Source of the DNA: Spirochaetaceae bacterium
Lineage (GTDB): Bacteria > Spirochaetota > Spirochaetia > Treponematales > Breznakiellaceae
NCBI GenBank assembly: GCA_031279895.1
Contig: JAITHR010000054.1
Location: 1 to 13,749 of the forward strand
DNA: 13,749 nt
Direction: 5' to 3'
Notes under the pieces: model-generated
What the model saw: the letters and a program-made list of their open reading frames with translations, nothing else
Database searches by the model: none
What the model was told of the DNA's origin: nothing
Shown: one piece after another, positions 233 through 13,388 of the stretch
How the letters are laid out: every line of letters starts with the position of its first letter
Position numbering within the stretch: position 1 is the first letter of the stretch
Position numbers and translations under genes: made by a program

Positions 233-345
233 TGCGGAGCGCCCTCTCAGCGGACTGCTACTGCTTTGAGCCGCGTATCAGGAAGCTTTTGTGCCGCCCG
301 CCGCCGGCGGGCAGGAAGCTTATATGCCTCCCGCCGCCGGCGGGC
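233..345. repeat. Degenerate copy of the composite repeat plus two GCC-rich palindromes
   Basis: The stretch around 233-300 aligns by eye with the middle of the 102-bp composite repeat seen at 11579-11680: it shares GCG(G/A)AGCGCC, ACTGCTTTGAGCCGCG and the GAAGCT(T/G)TTT segment. Two copies of CCCGCCGCCGGCGGG follow, near 298-312 and 329-345. The second lies inside the 3' end of the lipoprotein gene and encodes the end of its PPAAGGI tail. Confidence 0.6.
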
Positions 346-1108: not shown

Positions 1109-1271
1109 CGCCTCCAAGCGGTCAACGATTACGGTGAGCCGCTTTACAGGACGCCGTTTAAAACCGCCGCCGTCTCCGACGGTTCCATAAGCGTCATGCG
1201 AAGCGCCTCCAAGCGGTCAACGATTACGGTGAGCCGCTTTACAGGATGCTGTTTAAAACAGCCGGAGGCTG
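1108..1271 (+). repeat. Composite repeat, one partial and one complete 102-bp copy
   Basis: A 62-bp segment at 1108-1169 recurs at 1203 onwards with few changes (95-bp offset). The second copy is part of a complete 102-bp composite at 1170-1271. The composite starts with hairpin CCGTC-TCC-GACGG (1170-1182), continues with ATAAGCGTCATGCGAAGCGC, and ends with hairpin CAGCC-GGA-GGCTG (1259-1271). It aligns without gaps to 11579-11680. Positions 1239-1271 lie inside the 3' end of the ankyrin lipoprotein gene. Confidence 0.85.
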
Positions 1272-1985
1272 TGCCTTCAGGTAGTCGTATACCCTGGTAT
1301 GCCCTTTCTCACGGGCCGCGTCAGCCGGGGTTTTGTTTTCGCTGTCCCGTGTACGCACGTCGGCGCCGTTCTCAACCAGAAACCGCGCCACCTCAAAGCG
1401 GTTCCGGTCCGCAGCCAGCCATAACGCGGTCCGCTTCCGGTTATCAGAAATCTCAATGTCCGCGCCGTTTTCCACCAGAAACCGGACGCTCTCAAGCTCG
1501 CCCTCACCGGCAAAAAGCGCCAGTATCGGATGATAGGACTCGCGCTCTCCCAGCAGCAGCGCGGAGGCATTCGGATCGGCCCCCTGCTCAAGCAGAAAAC
1601 GCGCCACGTCCAGCCGCCTTAAAAGCAGCGCCGGACGCAGCAGCGGGGTGCTGTACCATGTGTCCCGCGGACCCATGGAAACCCGCCCGTTCACATCCCC
1701 GCCGTGCTTTATGAGTAGCTCCAAGACCCGAATGGTATGGCGGGCGTTAAAACCGGGCGTCCAGTCAGGGTTTATCGCGTCTCCCATACATTCCACCGCG
1801 TTCATCCGCCCCGCGTGCGCCGCAGCAAGACGGGTCATGGCCTCAAAATCATTCGCGGCCATTGCCCTTTCAAACGCCGCGGTATTCCGCTTGACCGCCT
1901 CGGCGCCGGTATTCTTTTCAGAGGCGCAGCCGGACAGAAGCAGCGCCGCAGCCACCACGCGCACACCAATCACTATGTTTCTCAT
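1239..1985 (-). CDS. Ankyrin-repeat lipoprotein
   Basis: This 248-residue protein has a short signal peptide with lipobox LLLSGC (Cys 20), so it should be exported and lipid anchored. Ankyrin repeats fill most of the mature chain. Clear repeat cores are VLELLIKHGGDVN (87-99), LDVARFLLEQGADPNA (125-140), LESVRFLVENGADIEISD (164-181) and FEVARFLVENGADVRTRD (197-214), with a last helix pair around 217-237. Ankyrin repeats usually bind proteins, and no catalytic motif is seen. The ATG at 1985 has a good ribosome binding site (AGGGGGA about 5 nt upstream) behind a purine-rich leader. The last ten residues, QPPAVLNSIL, and the stop codon come from the 3' half of the composite repeat at 1170-1271 read on the other strand. 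The plausible native end is near LKA at 236-238. The binding partner is unknown. Confidence 0.92.
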   Translation of the reverse strand: MRNIVIGVRVVAAALLLSGCASEKNTGAEAVKRNTAAFERAMAANDFEAMTRLAAAHAGRMNAVECMGDAINPDWTPGFNARHTIRVLELLIKHGGDVNGRVSMGPRDTWYSTPLLRPALLLRRLDVARFLLEQGADPNASALLLGERESYHPILALFAGEGELESVRFLVENGADIEISDNRKRTALWLAADRNRFEVARFLVENGADVRTRDSENKTPADAAREKGHTRVYDYLKAQPPAVLNSIL

Positions 1986-2083
1986 TGGTATCCCCCTTTT
2001 TTCTTTCTTCCCTTTCTTATCTTTCTTCCATAAAAACAGAGCGGCTCATGGCAGACGCAGACAGACTAGCCGTGCGAGACGCG

Positions 2084-2121
2084 CCGTCTCCGACGGTTTC
2101 ATAAGCGTCATGCCACGCGCC
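2084..2121 (+). repeat. Partial composite repeat (5' part)
   Basis: The hairpin CCGTC-TCC-GACGG (2084-2096) is followed by TTTCATAAGCGTCATGC, matching the first ~35 bp of the 102-bp composite at 1170 and 11579. After about 2112 the match fades. It lies about 100 bp upstream of the ankyrin gene start. Between them, 1990-2035 is a pyrimidine-rich tract that forms the purine-rich leader of that minus-strand gene. Confidence 0.75.
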
Positions 2122-2149
2122 CCGAACAACAACTGTCCCCTTACCGTGC

Positions 2150-2501
2150 GCACAACAACGCACGGCTCCCGAACCGCCAGAGGCTGCGCGAGAGCGTAGC
2201 CGCGCCTCAACAGCACTGACGCGCTCACCGGACAGGGTGTTGCACCACTTTGAAGCAACAGGCGGCCCTGTTTGAAACAGCCGGAGGCTGGCTGCGCCTG
2301 GGCGGCAGCCGGTAATGTAACCGGACAGGGTGTTGCACCACTTTGAAGCAACAGGCGGCCCTGTTTGAAACAGCCGGAGGCTGCGGCCATGCTGAAACAG
2401 CCGGAGGCTGGCCGCGCCTGGGCAGCACTGACGCGCTCACCGGACAGGGTGTTGCACCATTCGGAAACAACACGCGGCCATGTTTGAAACAGCCGGAGGC
2501 T
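2150..2501 (-). repeat. Cluster of three core repeat units, inverted relative to 12715-13195
   Basis: Three copies of a 31-bp core that begins GTGTTGCACCA and ends CGGCC lie at 2237-2267, 2330-2360 and 2449-2479. Each core can pair GTTG(C) with (G)CAAC. The cores are followed by GTTTGAAACAGCCGGAGGCT, giving CAGCC-GGA-GGCTG hairpins at 2278, 2371 and 2398 and an imperfect one at 2490. The same units occur in reverse orientation at 12715-13195. The match also covers the flanking segment near 2150-2172 (reverse complement of GGGAGCCGTGCGTTGTT), which recurs near 13166-13182. Long open frames here merely repeat with the DNA. Confidence 0.9.
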
Positions 2502-2544
2502 TAAAAATTTTTTTTAAAAAAGATACAATTCGTGCAAGAAATGC

Positions 2545-2572
2545 TTGACAAGCCCAATCGCATCCCCATAAT
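2545..2572 (+). promoter_or_regulatory. Predicted sigma70-type promoter P1 for the rimP operon
   Basis: A perfect -35 TTGACA (2545-2550) and a -10 CATAAT (2567-2572, five of six matches) are separated by 16 bp. An A/T tract (A5-T8-A6, 2503-2521) lies upstream. The predicted start, about 7 nt past the -10, is near 2579, inside the heptanucleotide tract. This is a sequence match only. Confidence 0.6.
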
Positions 2573-2573
2573 T

Positions 2574-2621
2574 CGTTTGTCGTTTGTCGTTTGTCGTTTG
2601 TCGTTTGTCGTTTGTCGTTTG
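2574..2621. repeat. Heptanucleotide microsatellite (CGTTTGT, nearly 7 copies)
   Basis: Six exact copies of CGTTTGT run from 2574 to 2615, followed by a partial CGTTTG to 2621. The tract begins one base after the -10 box of predicted promoter P1, so the RNA would start within it. Copy-number change by slipped-strand mispairing would alter the first bases and length of the leader. Confidence 0.95.
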
Positions 2622-2787
2622 GGTCATACTATGCCCTGAGAGGAACGCGGTGTTATGAAAGAGAGATAGTGGAAAGTACATTATGAAAAAGCATACTAAC
2701 AAACCAATGGCGGCACGGTCAAGCGCCGCGGCGCAGGCGGCTTACAGGCGCAACGCGGGATGTTTACGGAACAGGCCGGCCAACCGG

Positions 2788-2816
2788 TTGACAAAGGTTT
2801 TCGGTATTGATACTGT
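2788..2816 (+). promoter_or_regulatory. Candidate second promoter P2 upstream of rimP
   Basis: A perfect TTGACA at 2788-2793 is followed, after 17 bp, by TACTGT (2811-2816, weak, three of six). An alternative -10, GATACT, lies at 2809-2814 with a short spacer. A start near 2823 would give a leader that begins just before the terminator/antiterminator at 2826-2870. The -10 is poor, so confidence is modest. Confidence 0.35.
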
Positions 2817-2825
2817 TAGGGAACA

Positions 2826-2870
2826 GTCGAACATTCGTCATAAAAGAGGGTCGTTCGACGGCCCTTTTTT
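2826..2870 (+). terminator. Leader attenuator: intrinsic terminator with competing upstream arm
   Basis: GGGTCGT (2848-2854) pairs with ACGGCCC (2858-2864) around a TCG loop (seven pairs, one G-U) and is followed directly by six T residues (2865-2870), a textbook intrinsic terminator. Upstream, GTCGAAC (2826-2832) is the exact reverse complement of GTTCGAC (2853-2859), which lies inside the terminator. The two helices are mutually exclusive, as in terminator/antiterminator attenuators. The rimP start codon is 64 nt downstream, so operon transcription must read through. Regulation by NusA, which stimulates intrinsic termination, is inference. Confidence 0.7.
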
Positions 2871-2933
2871 ATCGAAAAATGTGGAAAGACCGGGAAAAAC
2901 GCGGAAATCACGTAGGGAAAACAGGAGACGCCG

Positions 2934-3395
2934 GTGCGGTTCACCCCCAAAGAAAAAGACCCTTTATTCGATGCAGCGGACGAGATCGTGCGCGGCCTGG
3001 GTATGTCCCTGATAGACCTGTCGGTGTTTCGAGGAAAGGCAGGGGTTCAGGTGAAAGCGGTGATCTGTAAAGGCGGCGTAATAAGCGTGGATGACTGCTC
3101 AAACGCGCACCGCGCCTTGATTCCCCGTCTGGAACTGGCCTTTTCAGGCCAAAACCTCTCGGTCGAAGTGTCCTCGCCGGGCACTGACCGGATTATTAAA
3201 GACGGCGCCGAACTTACGCATTATATCGGACGGGGGATCCGCTGTTTCAGAACGGATATTTCCGATTGGTCCGGCGGTATTCTCCAATCCGCCGATGAAA
3301 ACGGGCTGGCGCTTAAAGGAAAGGACGGAATGATACCATTAAAATATGAGGTTATCGCCAAAGCGAAATTAGATCGCGCAGAGGAGGAGGGTTAG
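2934..3395 (+). CDS. rimP: Ribosome maturation factor RimP
   Basis: RimP binds the free 30S subunit and helps its late maturation. The product is 153 residues, about the usual family length. Family landmarks are visible: SVDDCSNAHRAL (51-62), corresponding to the conserved 'DDC' loop of the N-terminal domain, and EVSSPGTDR (78-86), the conserved end of that domain. The rest is the small SH3-like C-terminal domain, ending in an acidic tail. The GTG start at 2934 is chosen because AGGAGA sits about 6 nt upstream and the N-terminus lines up with the family. Three bases separate its stop from the nusA start, so the two are co-transcribed and probably translationally linked. This is the standard rimP-nusA order of many bacteria. 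Confidence 0.95.
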   Translation: MRFTPKEKDPLFDAADEIVRGLGMSLIDLSVFRGKAGVQVKAVICKGGVISVDDCSNAHRALIPRLELAFSGQNLSVEVSSPGTDRIIKDGAELTHYIGRGIRCFRTDISDWSGGILQSADENGLALKGKDGMIPLKYEVIAKAKLDRAEEEG

Positions 3396-3398
3396 CCC

Positions 3399-4868
3399 GT
3401 GGCAATAGATGTGTCTGAAGCAATCCAGCATCTCATGCAGGATCGGGGGATGTCCAGGGAACTCATCCTGCAAACCATTGAAAAAACCCTTGTGGCCGCG
3501 TATAAACGCAGGTACGGAAACCTGGAAAACGCGGTGGTCAGGTTTAAAAACGACCGCGAGGTTTCGATTTACGCAAAAAAGAAAATTGTTGACAGCGTCT
3601 ATGACCCGCTTTCCGAAATAGAGGTAGAAGAGGCGCTGGAACTTAACTCGGAGGCGGAAATCGGCGACGAGATACTCATCGAGATTGACCCCACAAAGTT
3701 TGACCGCGGCGCGGTGCAGAGCGCCAAACAAACCGCGAGGCAGTCTATTCGGGAGATACAGAAAGATACCCTCTATTCCGAATACAAAGAAAAGATAGGG
3801 GAGATTATCATCGGGTATTATCAGCGGGAACAGAACGGCATGATCTATGTGGACCTCGGAAAACTGGAAGGCACGCTGCCCAAGAAGTTTCAGTCCCCGC
3901 GGGAAGTGTACCATACGAACGACCGGATAAAGGCGCTTATTGTTGACGTGGAAAAGAACGAAAAGTCCGCAGGCATCAAGGTAACGCTTTCAAGAACCCA
4001 TACCGAGTTTGTGCGGGCTATTTTTGAGGTGGAAGTGCCGGAAATCTACGATAAAACCGTGGAGATTCATAAGATCGTCCGCGAGCCGGGGTACCGTACC
4101 AAGATGGCGGTGTATTCCAATCAAAAAGACGTGGATCCGGTGGGCGCCTGCGTGGGTCTCAAAGGGGTGCGGATACAGACGGTCATAAAGGAGCTTGAGG
4201 GGGAAAAGATAGATGTGCTCAAATACGAGGTTGACCCGCGCAAGTTCATTATCAACGCCCTTTCTCCGGCGGAGGTTCGGGATGTTATCATCCTGGACGA
4301 GAACAAGCGCCAGGCCCTGGCGGTGGTAAACGAGTCCCAGCTTTCTCTGGCTATCGGCAAGCAGGGGCTTAACGTGAAACTTGCCAACCGGCTGGTTGAC
4401 TGGAATATCGACGTGAAAACCGATTCCCAGGTGGCGCAGATGGATATTAAAGCCGAGTCCCGCCGGGCGGTTTCCGAACTTTTCGGCGACGAAATTTCCC
4501 GGGTTTCCGAACTTCCCGGGGTGGATAAAACGGTAGTGGCCATCCTTCTGGAACACAAAATCGACTACATCGAAGACTTTATCTCCCTTTCGGCGGAGGA
4601 GCTTGCGGCCATAGGCGCTCTAACGACGGAACAGCTTGATACGCTGCGGAAACTGATAGACGAGTATGTGGAGATTATTGAGGAAGAGGAAGAGGATGCG
4701 CCGGCGCAGGGGGCGGACAAGCCTGCGGGACCGGATTCACCTGCTTTGTCTGAGGCGGAGGAATCCGAAGAGTACGAGTGTCCCGAATGCGGGGCCAAAA
4801 TAACCCTTGAGATGACCAAATGCCCGCTCTGCGGTATCGGGTTGAGTTTTGAATATGAGGAAGAATAA
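3399..4868 (+). CDS. nusA: Transcription termination/antitermination factor NusA with C-terminal Cys4 zinc-ribbon-like tail
   Basis: NusA binds RNA polymerase and nascent RNA, modulating pausing, intrinsic termination and antitermination. The order is standard: RNAP-binding N-terminal domain (about 1-125), S1 domain (about 134-199), then KH1 and KH2 (about 205-345), with GxxG-type loops GLKG (253-256) and GKQG (320-323). A helix-hairpin-helix-like segment follows (about 365-425, SELPGVDKTVVAILLEHKI), then an acidic linker. The tail is notable: CPEC (461-464) and CPLC (475-478) form a Cys4 motif that looks like a small zinc ribbon. It stands where many proteobacterial NusA proteins have acidic repeat domains. 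The start is GTG at 3399 with a strong GGAGGAGGG site 7 nt upstream. The protein has 489 residues and all core domains are complete. Confidence 0.98.
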   Translation: MAIDVSEAIQHLMQDRGMSRELILQTIEKTLVAAYKRRYGNLENAVVRFKNDREVSIYAKKKIVDSVYDPLSEIEVEEALELNSEAEIGDEILIEIDPTKFDRGAVQSAKQTARQSIREIQKDTLYSEYKEKIGEIIIGYYQREQNGMIYVDLGKLEGTLPKKFQSPREVYHTNDRIKALIVDVEKNEKSAGIKVTLSRTHTEFVRAIFEVEVPEIYDKTVEIHKIVREPGYRTKMAVYSNQKDVDPVGACVGLKGVRIQTVIKELEGEKIDVLKYEVDPRKFIINALSPAEVRDVIILDENKRQALAVVNESQLSLAIGKQGLNVKLANRLVDWNIDVKTDSQVAQMDIKAESRRAVSELFGDEISRVSELPGVDKTVVAILLEHKIDYIEDFISLSAEELAAIGALTTEQLDTLRKLIDEYVEIIEEEEEDAPAQGADKPAGPDSPALSEAEESEEYECPECGAKITLEMTKCPLCGIGLSFEYEEE

Positions 4869-4871
4869 ACG

Positions 4872-4897
4872 AGGCGCGCTTTTTTAAAAAAGCGCCT
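4872..4897 (+). other. Intercistronic hairpin between nusA and infB
   Basis: AGGCGC (4872-4877) and GCGCCT (4892-4897) flank T6A6, which can zip up as well, with only a GC insertion (4878-4879) breaking symmetry. The hairpin starts 4 nt after the nusA stop and lies 22 nt before infB. No U-tract follows on the plus strand, so it is more likely an mRNA processing or stability element than a full terminator. Confidence 0.65.
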
Positions 4898-4919
4898 GAA
4901 ATCTTTATTAAGGTAGATT

Positions 4920-7673
4920 ATGACTGAGGAATTAGAAAAAAAACAAGAAAAGGCGGAACTCATTAAAAAGCACGGGCCGGAGATTACAGAGGAGGCCGCG
5001 AAAGCGCCTGCGGAAACCGGGGAGCGCCCGCCTCGGAAAAAAGTAGTCAGGGTGAAAAAAGCGCCCGCCTCTGATTCGGAGCCGGTCGCGCCGGCGCACC
5101 GGAAAAAAATTGTTACCGCCGTGTCGCAGGGGGAAACGACGCACCTCGCGTCCAGGGGCAGAATAGGCGGCGCCGGACAAAGCCCCGGAAAGGATTCGGC
5201 GCAGGCCGTGGAACCGGCTAAAGAATCTTTTTCTCCCGCGCCTTTGGTTCCGGCGGCGGGTTCTTCAGTCGCCTCTTCAGCCTCAGTACCAACCCCGCCT
5301 ACAGTCTCGAAAGAATCCACCAAAGAAAGCCCCGGCCCCAAAGAGGGGAAAGGGCCGGATCAAATCCAGCGCACTGGCCCGTTTCCCCGGGGCGTGTCGT
5401 CTTTGCCGACCACCCCGCGCCCCAACGCGGCGGCGGGCAAGGTCGGCGGCAAGTTCGTGGGGCCCCGACATTCGCGGGACGAGGGGCATCAAAACCGGAG
5501 CGGCGCCGGCACGTTCCGACCGCGCCCCAACGCACCGGTTGCACGGACAGGGGGCAAGTTCGTGGGGCCCCGAACCGCCGAAAGCGGTCAGTCCGGCGGG
5601 CCGCGCCACTTTAGCGGACCCGGCGGACCGCGTCCCCGGGGAAGGCCGGGTTTTCAGGGAACTCCGCGTCCCGGGGGCTTTAATCCCCCGCGTCCCGGGG
5701 GCGGCCTCAATCGCCCCGGCGGGCGTCCGCCCATTGCAGGGGCGGCAGGTACGACCCAAAGCTCGCCCATTCTCGACCCCAAGGGAACTGCCAAAAAGAC
5801 CTTTAAGGCCAAAAAGCCCGTGTACACCAGACGGGACAAAGAGCTGGAAATGGAGGAGAAACTCCTTCAGACCAAGAAAAAAATCGCCCATACCGTCAAT
5901 CCGGTGCCGAAATTCATTGATATTATGGAGGTGGTTTCGGTCTCCGAATTGGCGCGGAAGATGAACCTCAAGGCCTCGGATCTTATTCAGAAACTTATGA
6001 GTATGGGCATGATGGTTACGATTAACGAGCAGATCGACGCGGACACCGCCACGCTTTTGGCATCCGAGTTCGGCGCCGAGGTGCGGATTATAAGCCTTTA
6101 TGACGAGACGGTTATTGAGACCGGCGCGGATGATGAAAGCGACATGACAACCCGCCCGCCGGTGGTAACGGTCATGGGACACGTTGATCACGGCAAAACG
6201 AAGCTCCTTGACGCCATCCGTAGTTCCGACGTGGTGGCCGGCGAGTTTGGCGGCATTACCCAGCATATCGGCGCCTATATCGTGGATACGCCAGGCGGCA
6301 AAATCACCTTTCTTGATACCCCGGGCCATGAGGCGTTTACCCGTATGCGTGCCAGAGGCGCGCAGGTAACGGACATTGTGGTGCTGGTGGTGGCTGCTGA
6401 TGACGGGGTTATGCCCCAGACCATCGAGGCAGTCAACCACGCCAAAGAAGCGAATGTTCCTATCATCGTGGCGGTAAACAAGATAGACAAGCCGGAAGCC
6501 AATCCCGATCGGGTCAAGAGCCAGCTTTCCGAGCTGGCCCTCCAGCCGGAGGAGTGGGGCGGCCAAACCATGTTTGTGGAGCTTTCGGCGCTCCGCAAGG
6601 AGGGGCTGGACAAACTTATTGACTCTATCTTGCTACAGGCGGAGATGCTTGATTTGAAAGCCAACTGCAACCGGCAGGCAGAAGGCAAGATTCTCGAATC
6701 CCGCATTGACCACGGGCGGGGCATTGTGGCGACCGTTATGGTACAGAAAGGGACTCTCAAAATCGGGGACTCTTTTGTGGCCGGCGTGTGGCCCGGCAAG
6801 GTGCGGGCGCTTTTCAATGACAAGGGCGGACGGGTTAATAAGGCCACGCCCGCCATGCCTATCGAGGTTGTGGGCTTTGAGGGGGTACCAAACGCAGGGG
6901 ATCCGCTCCAGGTGGTAGAGGACGAAAAGACCGCCCGGGGCATTTCCGCCAAACGGCAGGAACTTAAGCGCTTTGAGGATGCCAAGAACACCAAGAAGAT
7001 AACCCTTGATAATCTTTACGACACCATAAGCGACGGCGCCATTCAGGAACTTAAGGTTATTATTAAAGCCGACGTGCAGGGTTCCACCGAAGCGCTGCGC
7101 TCAAGTCTGGAAAAACTTTCCAACAAGGAAGTCAGGCTGAACGTGATTCAGGCGCTGCCCGGGGCCATTAACGAAGGAGACGTTGACTTGGCTATCGCCT
7201 CCAACGCGATAATCATCGGGTTCAACGTGCGGCCTGTTCCCAAGGCGAAACAGCTCGCGGAACAGGAGAAGGTTGACATACGGAAATACAACGTTATTTA
7301 CAAAGCGGTTGAGGAAATACAGCAAGCCATGGAAGGGATGCTCAAGCCGGACACGAAAGAAGAGGTTATCGCCACGGTGGAAGTGCGGCAGACGTTCAAG
7401 ACCCCCAAGTTCGGCACTATCGCAGGATGTTATGTGCAGACCGGTACGGTGAAGCGCAACGCAAGCGTCAATGTTATTCGGGACGGCATCGTGGTGCATA
7501 CGGGAAAGATTTCGTCCTTGCGGCGTATTAAAGATGATGTGAAGGAAGTGGCCGCGGGTTATGAGTGCGGCATAGGATTTGATAATTTTGACAGTATACA
7601 GGCGGACGACCAGCTTGAAGTCTTTGAAATCGTGGAAATCGCCAGAAAACTGACCGCCGGCCAGCCCGCGTAG
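4920..7673 (+). CDS. infB: Translation initiation factor IF-2
   Basis: IF-2 is the GTPase that places initiator tRNA on the 30S subunit and promotes subunit joining. The 917-residue protein has a charged N-terminal part, then a low-complexity Pro/Gly/Arg-rich region (about 140-275), the IF2 N-domain (about 332-388), the G domain (about 412-580), and the C-terminal domains II, III and IV. GTPase motifs are intact: GHVDHGKT (420-427), DTPGH (466-470), NKID (520-523) and SAL (556-558). In the low-complexity part, PRPNA...GGKFVGPR occurs twice, 35 residues apart (about 166-183 and 201-218). The ATG at 4920 has AAGG about 6 nt upstream. Only 51 bp separate it from nusA, with none of the small genes often found between them. 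It is the last gene of the operon: rbfA and truB, frequent downstream partners, are absent here. Confidence 0.98.
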   Translation: MTEELEKKQEKAELIKKHGPEITEEAAKAPAETGERPPRKKVVRVKKAPASDSEPVAPAHRKKIVTAVSQGETTHLASRGRIGGAGQSPGKDSAQAVEPAKESFSPAPLVPAAGSSVASSASVPTPPTVSKESTKESPGPKEGKGPDQIQRTGPFPRGVSSLPTTPRPNAAAGKVGGKFVGPRHSRDEGHQNRSGAGTFRPRPNAPVARTGGKFVGPRTAESGQSGGPRHFSGPGGPRPRGRPGFQGTPRPGGFNPPRPGGGLNRPGGRPPIAGAAGTTQSSPILDPKGTAKKTFKAKKPVYTRRDKELEMEEKLLQTKKKIAHTVNPVPKFIDIMEVVSVSELARKMNLKASDLIQKLMSMGMMVTINEQIDADTATLLASEFGAEVRIISLYDETVIETGADDESDMTTRPPVVTVMGHVDHGKTKLLDAIRSSDVVAGEFGGITQHIGAYIVDTPGGKITFLDTPGHEAFTRMRARGAQVTDIVVLVVAADDGVMPQTIEAVNHAKEANVPIIVAVNKIDKPEANPDRVKSQLSELALQPEEWGGQTMFVELSALRKEGLDKLIDSILLQAEMLDLKANCNRQAEGKILESRIDHGRGIVATVMVQKGTLKIGDSFVAGVWPGKVRALFNDKGGRVNKATPAMPIEVVGFEGVPNAGDPLQVVEDEKTARGISAKRQELKRFEDAKNTKKITLDNLYDTISDGAIQELKVIIKADVQGSTEALRSSLEKLSNKEVRLNVIQALPGAINEGDVDLAIASNAIIIGFNVRPVPKAKQLAEQEKVDIRKYNVIYKAVEEIQQAMEGMLKPDTKEEVIATVEVRQTFKTPKFGTIAGCYVQTGTVKRNASVNVIRDGIVVHTGKISSLRRIKDDVKEVAAGYECGIGFDNFDSIQADDQLEVFEIVEIARKLTAGQPA

Positions 7674-7680
7674 CCCGAAA

Positions 7681-7702
7681 CGCGCACGGTTTTTCCGGCG
7701 CG
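7681..7702 (+). other. Hairpin just after infB
   Basis: CGCGC (7681-7685) and CGG (7687-7689) pair with CCG (7695-7697) and GCGCG (7698-7702) around a T5 loop, with A7686 bulged. It begins 7 nt after the infB stop and has no T-tract after it. It may protect or define the infB mRNA 3' end ahead of the true terminator near 7804. Confidence 0.5.
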
Positions 7703-7803
7703 AAGCGGTTGCTGGCGGCGTAGGGGGGAGAGAACCTCCGCTTACCTACAGGTGCTTTTTCAGGTTATTCGCATCGTTACCTAACCGTGTGCGGCCAAAC
7801 CGG

Positions 7804-7823
7804 AACCGCCGGAGGCGGTTTTT
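7804..7823 (+). terminator. Intrinsic terminator of the rimP-nusA-infB operon
   Basis: AACCGCC (7804-7810) pairs perfectly with GGCGGTT (7814-7820) around a GGA triloop, and the T-run continues to 7823. The polarity fits the end of infB transcription. Stem and triloop are the same design as the repeat hairpins CCGCC-GGA-GGCGG (11668-11680) and CAGCC-GGA-GGCTG elsewhere in the window. Confidence 0.9.
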
Positions 7824-7862
7824 CTAAGGTAATATATAAAAGAAAAAGAAAATGGAAAAAAT

Positions 7863-10439
7863 TTACCTGCGCGGCGCACCGCTTGTACGCTCCGCAAGGG
7901 GGTAATAGTGCGCGAGGATCTGTTCCGCGGAAAAGCCCGCCTGAGCCATGCCCGCGGCGCCGCTCTGGTCAAGCCCGACCCCATGCCCCCAGCCGGCGCC
8001 TTGAAAGATAAAGTATTCCGGCGCCCCGTTCTTACCGAGCTTGGCCTGTATGGTAAAGAGGTTGCTCCGCAGCCCCCCCAAACGGCTGCGAATCCGGTCC
8101 CCCTTAATCCGCATAACCCCCAGAGAACCGCGCATTTCTATATCGTGTATCCTGCCTGAAATCCCTCTGCCCCTGCTTATAATGGCGAGTATGTCTCCTA
8201 TGGCGCCGTACTCCGCGTTCCGGCTTTGGATCTCCTCAACCGATACCCACTTTTCCCACCGGTACGCTTGGGTTGAATGGAGATTGGGCATTGACGAGTA
8301 AGATTCTGGGCGGTCCTGTATCCAGCGGGCAAGGCGGTCAAGGGAAAAGGCGGCGGTGCGGGGCGCCGCCAGTTTATCCGGCACCGCCGCGTTAAACGTC
8401 TCGTCTCCCCACACGGAAACGGTATTTTCGCTGTAGCCCCCGTGGTTTGCCGAGTAATAGGCTCTAAAGGGCTTACCGCCGGCGGTAAGATACACGCTTC
8501 TGGTGGCATCCACTGCGGCGGTAGTGGATGCCGCTTCCCCCGTAACGCCCCGGTACGCGGCGGAAAGCACCGAGCCATAGAGGTCAAAGCCCCGCTCCCG
8601 ATACTGTCCCAGATACGCCAGCGTATACGACCGCGCCGCGATTGCCTGGGCTTTGAGCGCCTCCTGGGGCCATGACGAGGGCATTTCGGCGGGAATAACG
8701 CCGTAGAGGTATTCTTCTATATTAAGAATGTTTATCACCGTAACGCGGCTTTCCGCGATCCGAAACTCGATGCTGCCCCGATAGGCGCGGTCTTCCCCGT
8801 TTGACCCGCCTACAATGGTGGTTGTGTCGGGGTTCTGATACGCGAGAACCACAGGAGTATCAGAGGCCAGCACGGTTTGTTCCCCCTGATTCTGTATGAG
8901 AAGCCTGCTATTCTGCCGGCTTATCCACAACTGCTCGGAGCCGTTTCCGTTGAATACCGCGCCGGCTCCGCCGGTTTTCAGGGTATACGGCCCGCCGGTT
9001 TTTACGGTAACAAGGGTCTGCCCCTCCATAAGCCCCACGCGCACCGTTACCAGATCCGGCTGGCGCAAGGCCCGCACCACAGGCGGCACCGCGCTGATCC
9101 GGCGGCGTTCCGGCGCTTTTCCCCCGCTTTCCAGCGGCATCATACCCGCAGCTTCCGCAAGGCTTTCGGCAATGCGGCTGTTCGCGGGAAAATACCGGCG
9201 GGCGCGGCTGAGATAGGAGTGGGCTTCCTGATACCGCCTCTGGCGCAGGAGCGCAAATCCCAACGGGAAAAGGGCGATACGCATTTCCGCATCCTGACGG
9301 AGGGCGGTTCTGAAGCAGGTTTCCGCTTCCGCATAGTTAAAGAGCGGCGCGCCGGCAAGTATTTCCCCCAGGAGCAGCCAGCCTAATGGCCGGAAACTCT
9401 CCGCCCCAAGGCTTTTTCGCAGGAGGGACTCGGCTTTTTCCCACTCCCCCCGGTCCCGCCGCAGCAGCGCTTCATAAAACAGGGTTTCGGCGGTTTCTTG
9501 GGAAAGGGGGAGGAGGGCCAGGGCTTTCCGGTCGTCCCCGACACGGCAGAGCGCGAGAAAAAGTTCCCGCTCCGCGTCGGCGGAACGGGGCCGGATACGC
9601 TCAAGAGCCTCCGCAGCGCGTCTTCCCTGTCCGGTTTCAGCGTAGAGGCGGGCTAGTTCCCCGTTAATGCGCTGGTTTTCCGGTTCGGCTTGAAGGAGCG
9701 CCTCAAACTCCCGAATACTTTCCTCCGCATTGCCTTGATAATACCTCTCGATACCCCGCGCCTCGGATCCCGAGCGGGAGAGCGGGCTTTGGGACCCGGG
9801 GGACGGTGAGTAGGACATGATTGAAAACGGGCCGACAGCACCGGCGCCGCCGCCGGGCGGCTCTTGATGCGGGAGCGCGGGCGGCGCGGGATGGGGCAGG
9901 GGCGTTACGGGGAGCGGCGCGTCAGAGCGTTTCCGTGAAACCTGCGGCATCGAGGGCAGGGCCGGCGGCGCGGGTGTGCGGGGCGGATTAACCGGAAGCG
10001 CCGGCGGGGGCGGCGCGGCCTGCGCCAGAATAGCGACAGGCTTGTCCGGCGGGAACGCGAGCCAGGGCGCCGCGTCTGCCGGCGGCTGGGCCGGCGGCAG
10101 GGTGAGGAACGGCCCCGCGTGTGGCGATCGGTCGAAAACGTCGAAAACAGGGAGATGCGGCGCGGGGTTTGCGGAGGGGCGCATACGGTTTGCGGAAGCC
10201 GGCGGCGTTTCTGACGGAGGAGGCTGGGGCGCGGGGTTTGCCGGGGAGCGCGTGCGGTTTACCGAAGCCGGCGGCGTTTCAGACGGGGGGGCGCTGTTTT
10301 GCGCCGCCGGATACGCGGAGTACGCGGTTTCGGTTTCTTGAAAACCCGCCTGTGCGCGGGTGTGCGCGGCGGCGTCCGACGTGGGTGCCGGCGGCGCGGC
10401 GCACGAAAAAAGACTTATAACACATAAAACCAAAAGCAT
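7863..10439 (-). CDS. SpoIID/LytB-family lipoprotein with TPR and proline-rich regions
   Basis: This 858-residue protein is probably secreted and membrane anchored. A short hydrophobic N-terminus ends in LFSC (Cys 13), a lipobox-like site, but lacks the usual basic residues. Residues 15-225 are proline/alanine-rich, with a 23-residue tandem duplication (PPSETPPAS... at 51 and again at 74). TPR-like helices cover about 228-430. A SpoIID domain covers about 465-850, with NIEEYLYGVIPAEMP (573-587), an HGGYSENTVSVWG segment (666-678) and GWGHGVGLDQSGA (816-828). In SpoIID, a lytic transglycosylase of the spore peptidoglycan machinery, the Glu of the AEMP motif is catalytic; here that is Glu 585. 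The relatives in non-sporulating bacteria are thought to act on cell-wall glycan. ATG 10439 is the only possible in-frame ATG after an upstream TAG, has no Shine-Dalgarno site, and lies 6 nt after a TATAAT box. The gene is convergent with infB. Confidence 0.93.
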   Translation of the reverse strand: MLLVLCVISLFSCAAPPAPTSDAAAHTRAQAGFQETETAYSAYPAAQNSAPPSETPPASVNRTRSPANPAPQPPPSETPPASANRMRPSANPAPHLPVFDVFDRSPHAGPFLTLPPAQPPADAAPWLAFPPDKPVAILAQAAPPPPALPVNPPRTPAPPALPSMPQVSRKRSDAPLPVTPLPHPAPPALPHQEPPGGGAGAVGPFSIMSYSPSPGSQSPLSRSGSEARGIERYYQGNAEESIREFEALLQAEPENQRINGELARLYAETGQGRRAAEALERIRPRSADAERELFLALCRVGDDRKALALLPLSQETAETLFYEALLRRDRGEWEKAESLLRKSLGAESFRPLGWLLLGEILAGAPLFNYAEAETCFRTALRQDAEMRIALFPLGFALLRQRRYQEAHSYLSRARRYFPANSRIAESLAEAAGMMPLESGGKAPERRRISAVPPVVRALRQPDLVTVRVGLMEGQTLVTVKTGGPYTLKTGGAGAVFNGNGSEQLWISRQNSRLLIQNQGEQTVLASDTPVVLAYQNPDTTTIVGGSNGEDRAYRGSIEFRIAESRVTVINILNIEEYLYGVIPAEMPSSWPQEALKAQAIAARSYTLAYLGQYRERGFDLYGSVLSAAYRGVTGEAASTTAAVDATRSVYLTAGGKPFRAYYSANHGGYSENTVSVWGDETFNAAVPDKLAAPRTAAFSLDRLARWIQDRPESYSSMPNLHSTQAYRWEKWVSVEEIQSRNAEYGAIGDILAIISRGRGISGRIHDIEMRGSLGVMRIKGDRIRSRLGGLRSNLFTIQAKLGKNGAPEYFIFQGAGWGHGVGLDQSGAAGMAQAGFSAEQILAHYYPLAERTSGAPRR

Positions 10440-10445
10440 ATACGG

Positions 10446-10474
10446 ATTATACTACACATAGCAGGCGCAGTCCA
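10446..10474 (-). promoter_or_regulatory. Promoter of the SpoIID-family gene, predicted leaderless
   Basis: On the minus strand TGGACT (10474-10469, four of six) is followed, after 17 bp, by a perfect TATAAT (10451-10446). The ATG at 10439 is only 6 nt beyond, so the predicted transcription start coincides with the start codon, and no ribosome binding site can fit. Confidence 0.75.
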
Positions 10475-10518
10475 CCGTCTCTTTTACGGCGGCGGCGCGG
10501 CGGCGCGGCGCGGCGGGC

Positions 10519-10547
10519 TTTAAACCTCACGGCAAGACTGGTATGAT
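10519..10547 (+). promoter_or_regulatory. Promoter of the DUF3842-fchA pair, predicted leaderless
   Basis: TTTAAA (10519-10524, four of six) and an extended -10, TGGTATGAT (10539-10547), are spaced by 17 bp. The ATG at 10555 is 7 nt after the -10, so the predicted transcription start falls on or next to the start codon. The upstream ATG at 10543 lies inside the -10 box and would not be in the transcript. A GC-rich CGG-repeat stretch (about 10482-10516) separates this promoter from the divergent one. Confidence 0.55.
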
Positions 10548-10554
10548 ACCGGGT

Positions 10555-10992
10555 ATGAAAGTTATTATTGTTGACGGCATGGGCGGCGGTATCGGAGTGC
10601 AGCTTATAAGCAGAATAAAAGACGCGCTTGCCGGCGAAACCCATAAAGCGGTTGAGCTTATCGCGCTCGGCACCAATTCGGTAGCTACCGAGCGGATGGT
10701 CAAAGCCGGCGCCCACAAAGGGGCCACCGGTGAAAACGCCATCACCGTATCGGCGCCTCTTGGCAGGTTTATCCTCGGTCCTATCGGCATTGTGATTACC
10801 AACAGCATGATGGGTGAGATTACGCCGCTTATGGCGGACGCTATTCTGCGGGCGCCTGGCGAACGCATCCTCCTTCCCCTCCAGAACGACCATTTCCACC
10901 TTGCGGGCCTTGAATCGATCCCCCTTGCGAGAATGATGGATAAGGCGGTGGACATTTTCAAAGAACGGCTTGAGGCGCTGAGAGAGCCGTGA
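10555..10992 (+). CDS. DUF3842 family protein
   Basis: The product has 145 residues and matches the DUF3842 pattern as I know it: an N-terminal VDGMGGGIG (6-14) glycine-rich, Rossmann-like motif, then IALGTNSVATERMVKAGA (about 36-53), KGATGENAI, and GPIGIVITNSMMGEITP (about 70-86). The function of the family is not established. The glycine-rich loop suggests nucleotide or cofactor binding, which is inference. ATG 10555 is preferred to ATG 10543, because 10543 lies inside a predicted -10 box and conserved sequence begins with MKVIIVDG. There is no clear Shine-Dalgarno site. The stop overlaps the next start (GTGA, 10989-10992), so it is translationally coupled with the FchA-like gene, and a shared folate-linked role is a reasonable guess. 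The length fits the family. Confidence 0.9.
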   Translation: MKVIIVDGMGGGIGVQLISRIKDALAGETHKAVELIALGTNSVATERMVKAGAHKGATGENAITVSAPLGRFILGPIGIVITNSMMGEITPLMADAILRAPGERILLPLQNDHFHLAGLESIPLARMMDKAVDIFKERLEALREP

Positions 10993-11621
10993 GATTCGCT
11001 GACTGTACCCTTGCCCGATTCTTCAGCCTCCTCGCCTCCGAAAGCCCGACCCCCGGCGGCGGCACGAGCGCCGCGCTCTGCGGGGCATTGGGCGCGAGCC
11101 TCCTTTCGATGGTGGCGGCAATAAGCGCGAAGAAAAACCCCGCCTGCCCGGGGGATTTCGAGCTGCTTGGCCGGAAAGCCGAAGCCTTGGGGCAGCGCTT
11201 TTTAGATTTGGCGGATGCGGATACCGAAGCGTACAAACGCATTATGAAAACCGTGAAAACTTCCGACGCACAGGACGCACTCAAAGACGCGGTTCTCACG
11301 CCCCATGCGATACTCGGCGCGTCCCTTGAGGGGCTGGCCCTTGCCAAAGACCTTGGGGACCGGTACTACGCCAGTACCGCAAGCGACGTGGGGCTGGCGG
11401 CCCAAAGCTTGCAGGCCGCGTCTGACGGCGCGGAACTGACCGCGCTTATGAACCTCGCCTGTATTACGGACCGGGACTTTCGGACGCGCTACGTTACGGA
11501 AAGCCGCGCCATGCGCGAACAGGCGCTCCGGCTTTCCCGCGAGGTGTATCAGGGCGTCCTTAACCGTCTTACCCCTCCCCGTCTCCGACGGTTTCATAAG
11601 CGTCATGCGAAGCGCCTGTAA
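10989..11621 (+). CDS. fchA: FchA/formimino-THF cyclodeaminase-like protein
   Basis: This 210-residue protein belongs to the cyclodeaminase family, which converts 5-formimino-THF to 5,10-methenyl-THF and ammonia, or, in several acetogens, is annotated as methenyl-THF cyclohydrolase FchA. Landmarks are ESPTPGGGTSAALCGALGAS (18-37), with the conserved TPGGG, and STASDVGLAAQSLQAA (129-144), the family's second signature. Which reaction it carries out cannot be decided from sequence alone. The start is GTG at 10989, overlapping the DUF3842 stop by 4 bp. Residues 198-210 (RLRRFHKRHAKRL) and the stop codon are encoded by the composite repeat at 11579-11680, so the C-terminus looks replaced by repeat sequence. 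No other folate gene lies in the window. Confidence 0.88.
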   Translation: MRFADCTLARFFSLLASESPTPGGGTSAALCGALGASLLSMVAAISAKKNPACPGDFELLGRKAEALGQRFLDLADADTEAYKRIMKTVKTSDAQDALKDAVLTPHAILGASLEGLALAKDLGDRYYASTASDVGLAAQSLQAASDGAELTALMNLACITDRDFRTRYVTESRAMREQALRLSREVYQGVLNRLTPPRLRRFHKRHAKRL

Positions 11622-11680
11622 GCAGGCGACGACTGCTTTGAGCCGCGGGACTTGAAGCTGTTTGGAACCGCCGGAGGCGG
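11579..11680 (+). repeat. Complete 102-bp composite repeat
   Basis: It aligns without gaps to 1170-1271 and has the same length. It carries a 5' hairpin CCGTC-TCC-GACGG (11579-11591), a middle hairpin CGCCTG-TAAG-CAGGCG (about 11715 in the related copy and 11615-11630 here), and a 3' hairpin CCGCC-GGA-GGCGG (11668-11680). In the 3' stem the A-T pair of copy 1259-1271 is replaced by C-G, a compensatory change. It overlaps the fchA 3' end, and the fchA stop TAA lies in the loop of the middle hairpin. Confidence 0.9.
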
Positions 11681-11696
11681 GCCGGCGGCGGCGGCA

Positions 11697-11873
11697 CATA
11701 AGCTTCATGCGAAGCGCCTGTAAGCAGGCGTTGCTTGCTTTGTCACGGTATCATGAAGCTGTTTGAAACAGCCGGAGGCTGCGTTGCTTGCTTTGTCACG
11801 GTATCATGAAGCTGTTTGAAACAGCCGGAGGCTGCTTTGCTTGCTTTGCCGCGGTATCATGAAGCTGTTTGGA
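11697..11873 (+). repeat. 5'-truncated composite plus 53-bp tandem copies
   Basis: A copy without the 5' hairpin runs from 11697 to 11781, ending in CAGCC-GGA-GGCTG (11769-11781). Its last 53 bp (11729-11781) are repeated, apparently perfectly, at 11782-11834. A third partial copy follows from 11835 and loses the match near 11871, seven bases before the amidohydrolase ATG. The identity of the first two copies suggests recent duplication. All of 11622-11877 is repeat DNA. Confidence 0.9.
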
Positions 11874-11877
11874 AAAA

Positions 11878-12732
11878 ATGGAAAAAATTGATTTTCATAT
11901 ACACGTTACGCCCCCTGAGATATGCCGGAACGTTGAGAAATACGCCCGCCGGGAGCCGTACTTCGGGCTTCTTTCGGCAAGCCCGTCCAACCGGTTCGCC
12001 TCCTGCGAAGAGGCCGTGGCGGAGCTTGACCGCGCCGGGTTCGCGCAAGCCGTGGTATTCGGCTTCGGCTTCCGCGATATGGGCCTGTGCCGGATGGTAA
12101 ACGACTATGTGATTGCCAAGACGCGGGAATACCCGGAAAGGCTCATCGGCTTTACGGTCGTGCCGCCCGCGCACCCTGAGAGCGCGCGGGAGATCGCCCG
12201 CTGCGCCGACGCGGGTCTTCGGGGGGTGGGCGAGGTGTTTCCGGCGGGGCAGGGTTTCAGTCTTGAGGATCCCGCGGATACCCGCGTGTTTGCCGGATGC
12301 TGCGTCGAGCGGGGGCTGCCGGTTCTGATACACGCCAACGAACCGGTGGGGCATTACTATCCGGGAAAGACCCCTACGACCCTTGGGGAGCTTGAGCGGT
12401 TTGTGGGGCGCAACCCTGACCTTACGATTATTCTTGCCCACTGGGGCGGCGGGTTTCTCTGGTACGAGATGATGCCGGAGGTTAAAAAGAAGTGCCGGAA
12501 CCTCTATTACGACACCGCGGCGTCGGTTTTTCTCTATGACGAGCGGATTTATAAAGTTGCCTGCGCTGCGGGCATAACAGAGCGCATCCTTTTCGGCAGT
12601 GATTTTCCCCTGGTTTCCCTGTCCCGTTATCTCGACGGCATTGCGCGAAGCGGCGTTTCCGAGGAGGCGCAATCCCTCATTTTAGGCGGAAACGCCGCCC
12701 GTCTTTTCAGCCCCCAGCCTCCGGCTGTTTAA
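11878..12732 (+). CDS. Amidohydrolase-2 family metal-dependent hydrolase
   Basis: The protein (284 residues) has the TIM-barrel metal-hydrolase pattern of the amidohydrolase-2 (PF04909) family, whose members hydrolyse or decarboxylate varied small substrates. The metal-binding set is visible: DFHIH (His 7 and His 9), LIHAN (His 152), AHWGGG (His 188) and GSDFPL (Asp 242). The substrate cannot be named. ATG 11878 is preferred because MEKIDFHIH gives the usual short N-terminus. An in-frame TTG at 11869 would add three residues (MEK). Only a weak GGA lies upstream of 11878. The gene sits between repeats: upstream repeat sequence ends about 7 bp before the start, and QPPAV and the stop codon come from the repeat beginning at 12715. 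The native C-terminus would end near NAARLF, where relatives often finish. Confidence 0.93.
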   Translation: MEKIDFHIHVTPPEICRNVEKYARREPYFGLLSASPSNRFASCEEAVAELDRAGFAQAVVFGFGFRDMGLCRMVNDYVIAKTREYPERLIGFTVVPPAHPESAREIARCADAGLRGVGEVFPAGQGFSLEDPADTRVFAGCCVERGLPVLIHANEPVGHYYPGKTPTTLGELERFVGRNPDLTIILAHWGGGFLWYEMMPEVKKKCRNLYYDTAASVFLYDERIYKVACAAGITERILFGSDFPLVSLSRYLDGIARSGVSEEAQSLILGGNAARLFSPQPPAV

Positions 12733-13195
12733 GCAAGGCCGCCTGTTGTTTCCAAGTAGTGCAACACCGTGTCCGCCGGCGGCGCCGGAGGCACAGCAAG
12801 GCCGCCTGTTGTTTCAAAGTAGTGCAACACCGTGTCCGCCGGCGGCGCCGGAGGCACAGCAAGGCCGCCTGTTGCTTCCAAGTTGTGCAACACCTTGTCC
12901 GGTGAGCGCGTCAGTGCTGTTGAGGCGCTGCTACGCTTCGCGCAGCCTCCGGCTGTTTAAGCAAGGCCGCCTGTTGTTTCAAAGTAGTGCAACACCTTGT
13001 CCAGTTACATTACCGGTTGCTGTTGAGGCGCGGCTACGCTCTCGCGCAGCCTCCGGCTGTTTCAAACATGGCCGCCTGTTGCTTCCAAGTTGTGCAACAC
13101 CGTGTCCAGTGAGCGGGCTGGTTCTTACTAAGGCGCGGCTACGCTTCGCGCAGCCCGCCGCGGTTTGGGAGCCGTGCGTTGTTATGCGCAGCAGC
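12715..13195 (+). repeat. Cluster of five core repeat units, inverted relative to 2150-2501
   Basis: A 31-bp core (GGCCGCCTGTTG ... GTGCAACAC) occurs at 12737, 12800, 12863, 12965 and 13070. Hairpins CAGCC-TCC-GGCTG lie at 12715, 12943 and 13047. Units one and two are followed by a GCC-rich stretch, and units three to five by longer arms containing GCGCTACGCTTCGCG-like sequence. Relative to the cluster at 2150-2501 everything is on the opposite strand. An open frame of about 160 codons across the cluster consists only of repeated units, and is not regarded as a gene. Confidence 0.9.
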
Positions 13196-13200
13196 CTCCG

Positions 13201-13335
13201 GCCCTTTCAGGCGGTTTCACGGCTACTTTAGACAGCCTCCCGACCAATACGCGCCGAATTCCCGCCATGACAAACGGGAGCCCGTCCAGAGTAAACGGGA
13301 GCCTGCCTGAAGTAGCCGGAGAGCCGCCTGAAGGC
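13201..13335. repeat. Long imperfect inverted repeat
   Basis: The 23-bp arm at 13220-13242 (CGGCTACTTTAGAC...) is matched in reverse complement at 13296-13318, with about three mismatches. Outer arms at 13201-13214 and 13324-13335 also pair (CCGCCTGAA...). The loop contains two copies of AAACGGGAGCC (from about 13272 and 13294). The following stretch, to 13388, holds another CAGCC-GGA-GGCTG hairpin (13367-13379) and nothing gene-like. Confidence 0.75.
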
Positions 13336-13388
13336 TGCGGGAGGCCATTCGGGGTGCGTTATGAAACAGCCGGAGGCTGCGGGAGGCC

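Follow-up and report, generated by a model that had tools for sequence, protein, structure and literature searches.

Background

Small mobile repeats with translated frames have been reviewed (PMC2229807), and they are the closest described counterparts of the short hairpin repeats considered here, which appear to supply the C-termini of several genes in a 13,749-nt stretch of DNA (contig JAITHR010000054.1, assembly GCA_031279895.1 of a Spirochaetaceae bacterium; hereafter the window). The RU elements of enterobacteria (RU-1, RU-2 and RU-3) are small repeats with open frames that are fused in frame to gene 3' ends; PMC2759123 gives unit lengths of 103-168 bp and 24 annotated loci over several species, and describes one amidase from which the normal stop was apparently removed. 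The Rickettsia palindromic elements, of 105-146 bp, are translated in frame inside ordinary conserved proteins (PMC2229807). Repetitive extragenic palindromes (REPs), which carry GTAG or CGTC tags, are short, often mutually opposite, and located near gene 3' ends (PMC3733652), and those within 15 nt of a stop have been linked to translation control and ribosome stalling in Escherichia coli (work cited in PMC12306157). Miniature inverted-repeat transposable elements (MITEs) are non-coding, occur in high copy number and have inverted ends.

The present case belongs with the known repeat-gene fusions in kind, and differs in the share of genes involved, the frequently identical tail and the near absence of the repeat from gene interiors; the kind is thus known, while the extent is new. 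As with the RU elements, the repeat stands in frame at the gene 3' end, the native stop is lost and relatives lack the repeat. Such fusions are usually reported as single cases, whereas here about one-seventh of the sampled gene ends (46/311) of one genome are involved, mostly with a tail of 5-6 residues. Like the Rickettsia elements, the repeats are palindromic and translated in ordinary conserved proteins, but in-frame insertion within coding regions is not their habit: 38 exact hairpins lie at gene ends and only 1/410 is mid-gene, in agreement with the first-pass annotation of the window, which had contrasted gene ends with the intragenic Rickettsia elements. The copies resemble REPs in lying between genes close to 3' ends, but the sequence beside the hairpin is TTYCA rather than GTAG or CGTC, the palindrome is on the side facing outward, and no Y1 transposase gene lies beside the copies. 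Among the 8-mers that follow the hairpin, none of the 40 commonest starts with either tag and most begin TTYCA or CTTCA, although CGTC occurs inside one stem (B, below). Membership of the REP/RAYT system was rejected on the absence of the tag, of hairpins at the Y1_Tnp locus, and of the tyrosine from the match in the source genome. Terminal inverted repeats, as in MITEs, bound the majority of blocks (outer hairpin pairs (+,-) in 21/36 regions), but these blocks are mosaics of variable content. No description of these repeats in termite-gut treponemes was found among the literature matches listed, and the terms "palindrom", "intergenic" and "mobile element" do not occur in the text of PMC13067680.

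Repeat-encoded gene ends in the window

The genes, repeats and tails concerned are as follows (right edges marked "by eye" were placed visually).

320..338, minus strand: GCC-rich repeat GGCGGCGGGAGGCATATAA, at the end of the lipoprotein open reading frame (ORF) 320-748
1239..1985, minus strand: ankyrin-repeat lipoprotein-like gene (Pfam Ank_2 and others)
1239..1271, minus strand: tail QPPAVLNSIL and stop of the ankyrin protein, both encoded by the repeat
1259..1271, minus strand: class A hairpin CAGCC-TCC-GGCTG, translated as QPPAV within the ankyrin gene
2080..2502, unstranded: repeat block in the gap between the ankyrin gene and rimP
10989..11621, plus strand: FTCD/FchA-like gene (PF04961)
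11579..11591, plus strand: class B hairpin CCGTC-TCC-GACGG, in the end of the FTCD gene
11580..11621, plus strand: repeat-encoded tail RLRRFHKRHAKRL and stop of the FTCD gene; relatives end otherwise
11579..11866, unstranded: repeat block separating the FTCD gene from the amidohydrolase gene (right edge by eye)
11878..12732, plus strand: amidohydrolase (Amidohydro_2) gene (PF04909 and relatives)
12715..12732, plus strand: class A hairpin followed by TTTAA, giving QPPAV and the stop of the amidohydrolase
12715..13380, unstranded: repeat block 3' of the amidohydrolase (right edge by eye)

The first-pass annotation had noticed that these genes end in repeats, which is confirmed, and had read the repeats as providing the C-termini, which the comparisons support. 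In both the ankyrin protein (QPPAVLNSIL) and the amidohydrolase (QPPAV), CAGCCTCCGGCTG is translated in one orientation and one frame. The FTCD/FchA-like protein ends in RLRRFHKRHAKRL, derived from the repeat CCGTCTCCGACGGTTTCATAAGCG... in a frame other than the QPPAV frame, and its TAA sits, when folded, inside the loop of CGCCTG-TAAG-CAGGCG. The minus-strand lipoprotein ORF likewise ends in GGCGGCGGGAGGCATATAA, a repeat type found 15 times in the sample (defined below), with the TAA serving as the stop of a called gene in one of these copies; this ORF gave no Pfam match and no homologue with which its end could be compared, and the comparisons thus covered three of the four proteins, namely the ankyrin, FTCD and amidohydrolase.

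The claim that family sequence ends near the repeat stands for FTCD and the amidohydrolase, the relatives of which have unrelated terminal residues at about the junction, so that these tails are lineage-specific. For the ankyrin protein the evidence is softer: the three best non-self hits stop at query residue 239, one residue inside the tail, and weaker hits stop at many positions, with a few reaching residue 245. In named records, the amidohydrolase has its nearest relatives in metagenome-assembled genomes of treponemes and Spirochaetaceae. The order of the FTCD and amidohydrolase genes is retained in three congeners, with 22-41 nt between the two matches compared to approximately 256 nt from stop to start in the window.

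Frequency of repeat-ended genes

The source assembly (G000) comprises 1.88 Mb in 292 contigs and is 75 % complete, with the window as contig C182. The sample drawn from it took contigs at intervals of five, first from C5 to C290 and then from C3 to C103 (C58 excepted), and the window was added, giving 79 contigs (502,638 nt) with 329 called genes, of which 311 include a stop; sub-samples of 21 contigs (158 kb) and 59 contigs were used for the stem survey and for the arm pairing and outer-hairpin counts, respectively. Genes were called with a purpose-written codon-bias script, which clips some starts and missed the lipoprotein ORF. A gene-end hairpin was defined as an exact copy within the last 130 nt of a called gene. 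Repeats were also masked on the basis of 13-mers with at least 6 occurrences in at least 5 contigs, a definition blind to hairpins, with a masked end comprising the stop and last two codons and a masked start the start and next two codons. The genomes used for comparison include a congener, G005 (62 % complete), and G001 to G004; we take G004 and G005 to be termite-gut genomes.

Exact hairpins occur at the ends of 37/311 genes (38 copies; by gene, A 29, B 7 and C 1), and all 38 are in the orientation of the gene. Elsewhere in genes, one of the 410 sampled hairpins is mid-gene and two are at gene starts, all three in the opposite orientation. The mask, applied independently of hairpins, covers 46 gene ends and two gene starts, with 5/178 ends and no starts masked in G005. 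The union of these definitions gives 52/311 repeat-ended genes, four of which end less than 300 nt from a contig edge; scaled by length, this extrapolates to about 200 such genes in the whole assembly. When hairpins are instead defined by the sequence at their foot (59 contigs), 21 gene-end copies are in the same orientation as the gene and one is opposite. The first-pass expectation that further proteins would end in this manner is borne out, with PPAV or SPTV at most one residue from the stop in 24/311 genes. The proteins that bear tails are varied, ordinary enzymes, including GyrA, PyrD, TruA, PurL and GcvT. A second shared tail, GGGT, derived from the GCC-rich repeat, is found in five genes of the mask-based list.

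Loss of native gene ends

Of the 32 tail genes in the first sample, 18 gave homologues (tblastn, E up to 1e-10), with no special search made for the remainder. For eleven conserved tail bearers the ends were read in six relatives searched with a joined query, with further loci added. Native ends are lost at the junction with the repeat. GcvT ends YTPAYR|QPPAVS here and YTPAYRRKPV* or YTPVYKRE* in relatives, while the malic enzyme ends KTGVA|PSPTVS compared to KTGVARI* in a relative, and the native ends of TruA, PyrD and RpiB are likewise replaced. Among the best 119 of 462 GcvT homologues, conservation is 96-100 % for the final P, Y and R ahead of the junction and 90 % for R, the first residue lost. 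The homologue ends at most 8 residues from the junction in 116/119 of these and in 112/119 of the best-listed amidohydrolase homologues (best 119 of 1797). Relatives with the same tail would have indicated that the tails are native; PPAV or SPTV occurs in the last 12 residues of 0/238 of these best-listed homologues.

In G005, the native protein extends past the junction by 8 residues in PyrC, 5 in GyrA, 3 in RpiB, 13 in PurL, 2 in an M24 family protein, 4 in GcvT, 20 in thymidine phosphorylase, -4 in PurN, 4 in malic enzyme, 7 in FTCD and 1 in the amidohydrolase (hand-derived median 4). The other relatives vary more, with GyrA extending 2 to 53 residues past the junction and five M24 relatives ending 3 residues before it. 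Family models back the identities of the tail bearers, although GyrA, which lacks its start at a contig edge, scored 814 bits against a cut-off of 877, and the best model reaches 1-6 positions from its own end in PyrD, GyrA, RpiB, PurL, thymidine phosphorylase, PurN and TruA. More was lost from two proteins, since the family match of the dihydroorotase (L165:693-1952) halts 22-24 positions early, its C-terminus lost to the repeat, and the relatives of thymidine phosphorylase have 14-20 more residues. As a warning, residues at the C-terminus of proteins in such genomes are not necessarily characteristic of the family. The affected genes, among them a GyrA homologue and enzymes of purine and pyrimidine metabolism, represent a natural experiment that bears on what part of a protein C-terminus is dispensable, with the repeat edges marking the functional limits of genes.

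Hairpins stand next to intact native ends in the congener. A CAGCC hairpin directly follows the native stop of PyrC, GyrA, RpiB and M24 in G005, and its amidohydrolase ends inside CCCCC-ATA-GGGGG (both by eye). Two further G005 genes (L285 and L315, contigs C56 and C273) end in QP, with TAG formed in the loop of CAGCC-CTA/GTA-GGCTG.

Composition of the repeat family

Three hairpins are amplified in the source genome, with stems A (CAGCC-TCC-GGCTG), B (CCGTC-TCC-GACGG) and C (CCGCC-TCC-GGCGG), a common loop and a mostly common foot (TTYCA). Perfect hairpins with a 5-bp stem and 3-nt loop number 64 (A), 30 (B), 16 (C) and 26 (GCC-rich type) in the stem survey. The 410 hairpins of the full sample comprise 219 A, 161 B and 30 C. 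Stems vary while pairing stays: with the TCC loop and TTY foot, the arms of A, B and C are matched in 239 copies and mixed in 24 (hand sum; 59 contigs), and the loops CTC and CCT give one and no perfect stems, respectively. CAGCCTCCGGCTGTTT is present in 927 copies in G000 at up to two mismatches, compared to one for the reversed control. At up to one mismatch the class A hairpin has 791 copies in G000 and 188 in G005, and 0-3 in each of 37 other relatives. The CAGCC stem carries many loops in G005, including GGA (30), GAA (20) and TCC (15) among 92 hairpins with the TTYC foot.

Orientation and block edges

The density of same-strand hairpins peaks directly at the stop, with 8.9 per kb in the first 10 nt, 6.6 and 4.6 in the following two 10-nt steps, 1.5 between 30 and 60 nt, 2.7 between 60 and 100 nt, and down to 0.5 between 300 and 500 nt. 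Opposite-strand hairpins are absent from the first 20 nt and thereafter occur at 0.6-2.5 per kb. The 5' side mirrors the 3' side, with 91 opposite-strand and 4 same-strand hairpins in the 150 nt before starts (bins summed). Among 36 intergenic regions with multiple hairpins (59 contigs), the outer pairs are (+,-) in 21, (+,+) in 7, (-,-) in 8 and (-,+) in none, such that the outer hairpins face outward on both sides in 21/36 regions, on one side in 15/36 and in reverse in none. As the outer hairpins mostly face outward, they are block ends, and their orientation at stops therefore needs no terminator role. The block edge lies at the stop on the 3' side and mostly 30-150 nt before the start on the 5' side, a region in which promoters and ribosome sites would be expected.

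In G005, orientation judged by the TCC loop is opposite in 4/4 hairpins after stops, with two same and one opposite at gene ends, while the TTYC foot gives the same orientation in 4/5 and 5/5 cases, respectively. The loop was thus rejected as an orientation mark in this genome, and it is the foot that marks orientation.

Reading frame and tail length

The tails are read in the QPPAV/PSPTV frame in 31/37 genes (p 3.6e-10 against one third). Across all copies, the median tail to the next stop in the three frames is 16, 31.5 and 33 residues, and 37 %, 15 % and 1 % of copies, respectively, would give a tail of at most 7 residues. The observed tails are biased towards short lengths (median 6 residues; 5 or 6 in 25/37), and a stop at most 8 nt away in the QPPAV frame occurs in 26/37 gene-end copies compared to 121/372 elsewhere. 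A 7-residue limit would by itself place 70 % of tails in the QPPAV frame, so selection for short tails suffices to account for most of the frame bias, which is weakened as a proof of targeted insertion. A functional peptide tag was rejected, as the peptides QPPAV and PSPTV differ between stems while the pairing is kept, and it looks as if structure rather than peptide is conserved.

Origin of the repeat-encoded gene ends

The explanation favoured here, with a probability of roughly 0.7, is that non-autonomous mosaic repeats occupy a large part of the longer intergenic stretches and take the place of the final few codons and the stop of neighbouring genes. A small repeat family of this type has been amplified in one lineage, its blocks mostly bounded on both sides by outward-facing 5-bp hairpins (stem A, B or C, loop TCC and an inner foot that is mostly TTYCA). 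At gene 3' ends the block edge reaches to the last needed codon, with the hairpin replacing the native final codons and stop. About one-third of copies have a TAA at most 8 nt from the hairpin in one frame; these are over-represented at gene ends, where they terminate the protein with a tail of 5-6 residues (QPPAV, QPPAVS or PSPTVS). Copies that are read in the other frames, or that would give longer tails, are rarer there, which is the pattern expected under selection against long tails and truncations. The event itself was probably insertion or recombination, with selection acting as a filter and the retained tails being near-neutral.

Several points weigh against this explanation. The filling is far from complete, with the mask covering 27.8 % of intergenic DNA and 139/185 intergenic regions lacking an exact hairpin; these regions have median lengths of 13-28 nt (141 nt between divergent genes) compared to 274-608 nt for those with hairpins. 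The gene calls rest on one simple self-made caller. Hairpins located 0-30 nt past native stops are in phase in 18/31 genes (p 0.006, one of several looks), an excess that tail selection leaves unexplained. No mobilising enzyme is tied to the repeats among those sought (Y1_Tnp, IS110 and the TnpB zinc domain). The latter two gave no match in G000 or G005, and Y1_Tnp gave one match in each, compared to 8 in G001, 11 in G004, 16 in G003 and none in G002; G001, G003 and G004 thus have many matches though they lack such hairpins in number. No hairpin of the searched stems occurs in the Y1_Tnp loci of G000 and G005 (1.9-3.3 kb), although another copy may be missing from genomes that are 75 % and 62 % complete. 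The sole G000 match (L220, contig C185) lacks a tyrosine kept by its similar-looking G005 counterpart (by eye), with FATKNP in the former and FWYVTENP in the latter, and this tyrosine is presumably the catalytic one.

The tails may instead derive mainly from recombination between repeats, which would move gene ends next to foreign blocks without insertion at each gene. Gene order in relatives is kept downstream of just 3/14 tail genes and upstream of 8/13, so some tails may stem from rearrangement, and the loss of order downstream fits repeats at breakpoints; these counts include many short flanks and have no tail-free control set. The gcvT gene (L194, around 5025) has no downstream similarity in G004 or G005, and what follows it here is a repeat block with a convergent gene. 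Gene order is lost at operon ends in any case, however, and FTCD, PurN and malic enzyme retain their downstream neighbour with a block between, which makes recombination doubtful as the principal source of the tails.

It is also conceivable that the hairpins are functional, a stem-loop at or near the stop tuning termination or mRNA stability of the upstream gene and being kept by selection. The density peak at the stop, the change of stems with both arms matched, the in-phase excess past native stops, the G005 hairpins right after stops (with TAG in the loop in two genes) and the ribosome stalling linked to E. coli REPs near stops would all accord with this. Identical hairpins in the opposite orientation nevertheless form the other boundary of the blocks, located upstream of genes, the tails are borne by ordinary enzymes of diverse types, and the predicted stems are weak (-5.5 to -7.6 kcal/mol), so that a functional role of this type appears unlikely.

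Still less probable is that the hairpins are intrinsic transcription terminators multiplied at operon ends. T residues follow 31/33 of the first hairpins within 30 nt past stops, and a class C stem with TTTTT lies after infB (7806-7826), but in place of the T run that follows a GC-rich hairpin in an intrinsic terminator the commonest feet are TTTCATAA, TTTCAAAC, TTTTAAAC, CTTCAGCA and TTCCATAA, with just two to four T. The hairpins before starts are oriented away from such use (91 against 4), a hairpin upstream of the stop would give an mRNA ending at the stop, and the block edges upstream of genes bear the same hairpins the other way round, on which ground terminators were rejected as the principal explanation. 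That the tails are native, or artefacts of a fragmented assembly (292 contigs, 75 % complete) and a simple gene-calling script, is very improbable, given that the tail occurs in 0/238 best-listed homologues, conserved family frames run straight into the repeat and just 4/52 repeat-ended genes are close to a contig edge.

Beyond replacement of gene ends by mosaic repeats, a more speculative possibility is that the repeat docks at stop codons, entering preferentially there with its outer hairpin first and in codon phase, with some copies bringing a replacement stop. This is suggested by the density peak, the phase excess, the 9/31 hairpins that begin exactly 0 or 3 nt past the native stop and the loop stops of G005. 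If correct, the repeat could occupy essential genes harmlessly and would provide an appreciable part of the proteome with a shared C-terminal tag. The present case also makes it testable whether a mobile repeat can adapt to gene ends by means of its own stop codon.

Other features of the window

Comparison of the window against Rfam gave no match at the gathering threshold. The sequence at 7800-7826, 3' of infB, is AACCGCCGGAGGCGGTTTTT, which combines a class C stem and T run (TTTTT; both within 7806-7826); it is plausibly an intrinsic terminator and possibly the source of the hairpin. Tandem arrays of other repeat families, with units of approximately 20, 21 and 42 nt, occupy both contig ends (1-170 and 13389-13749).

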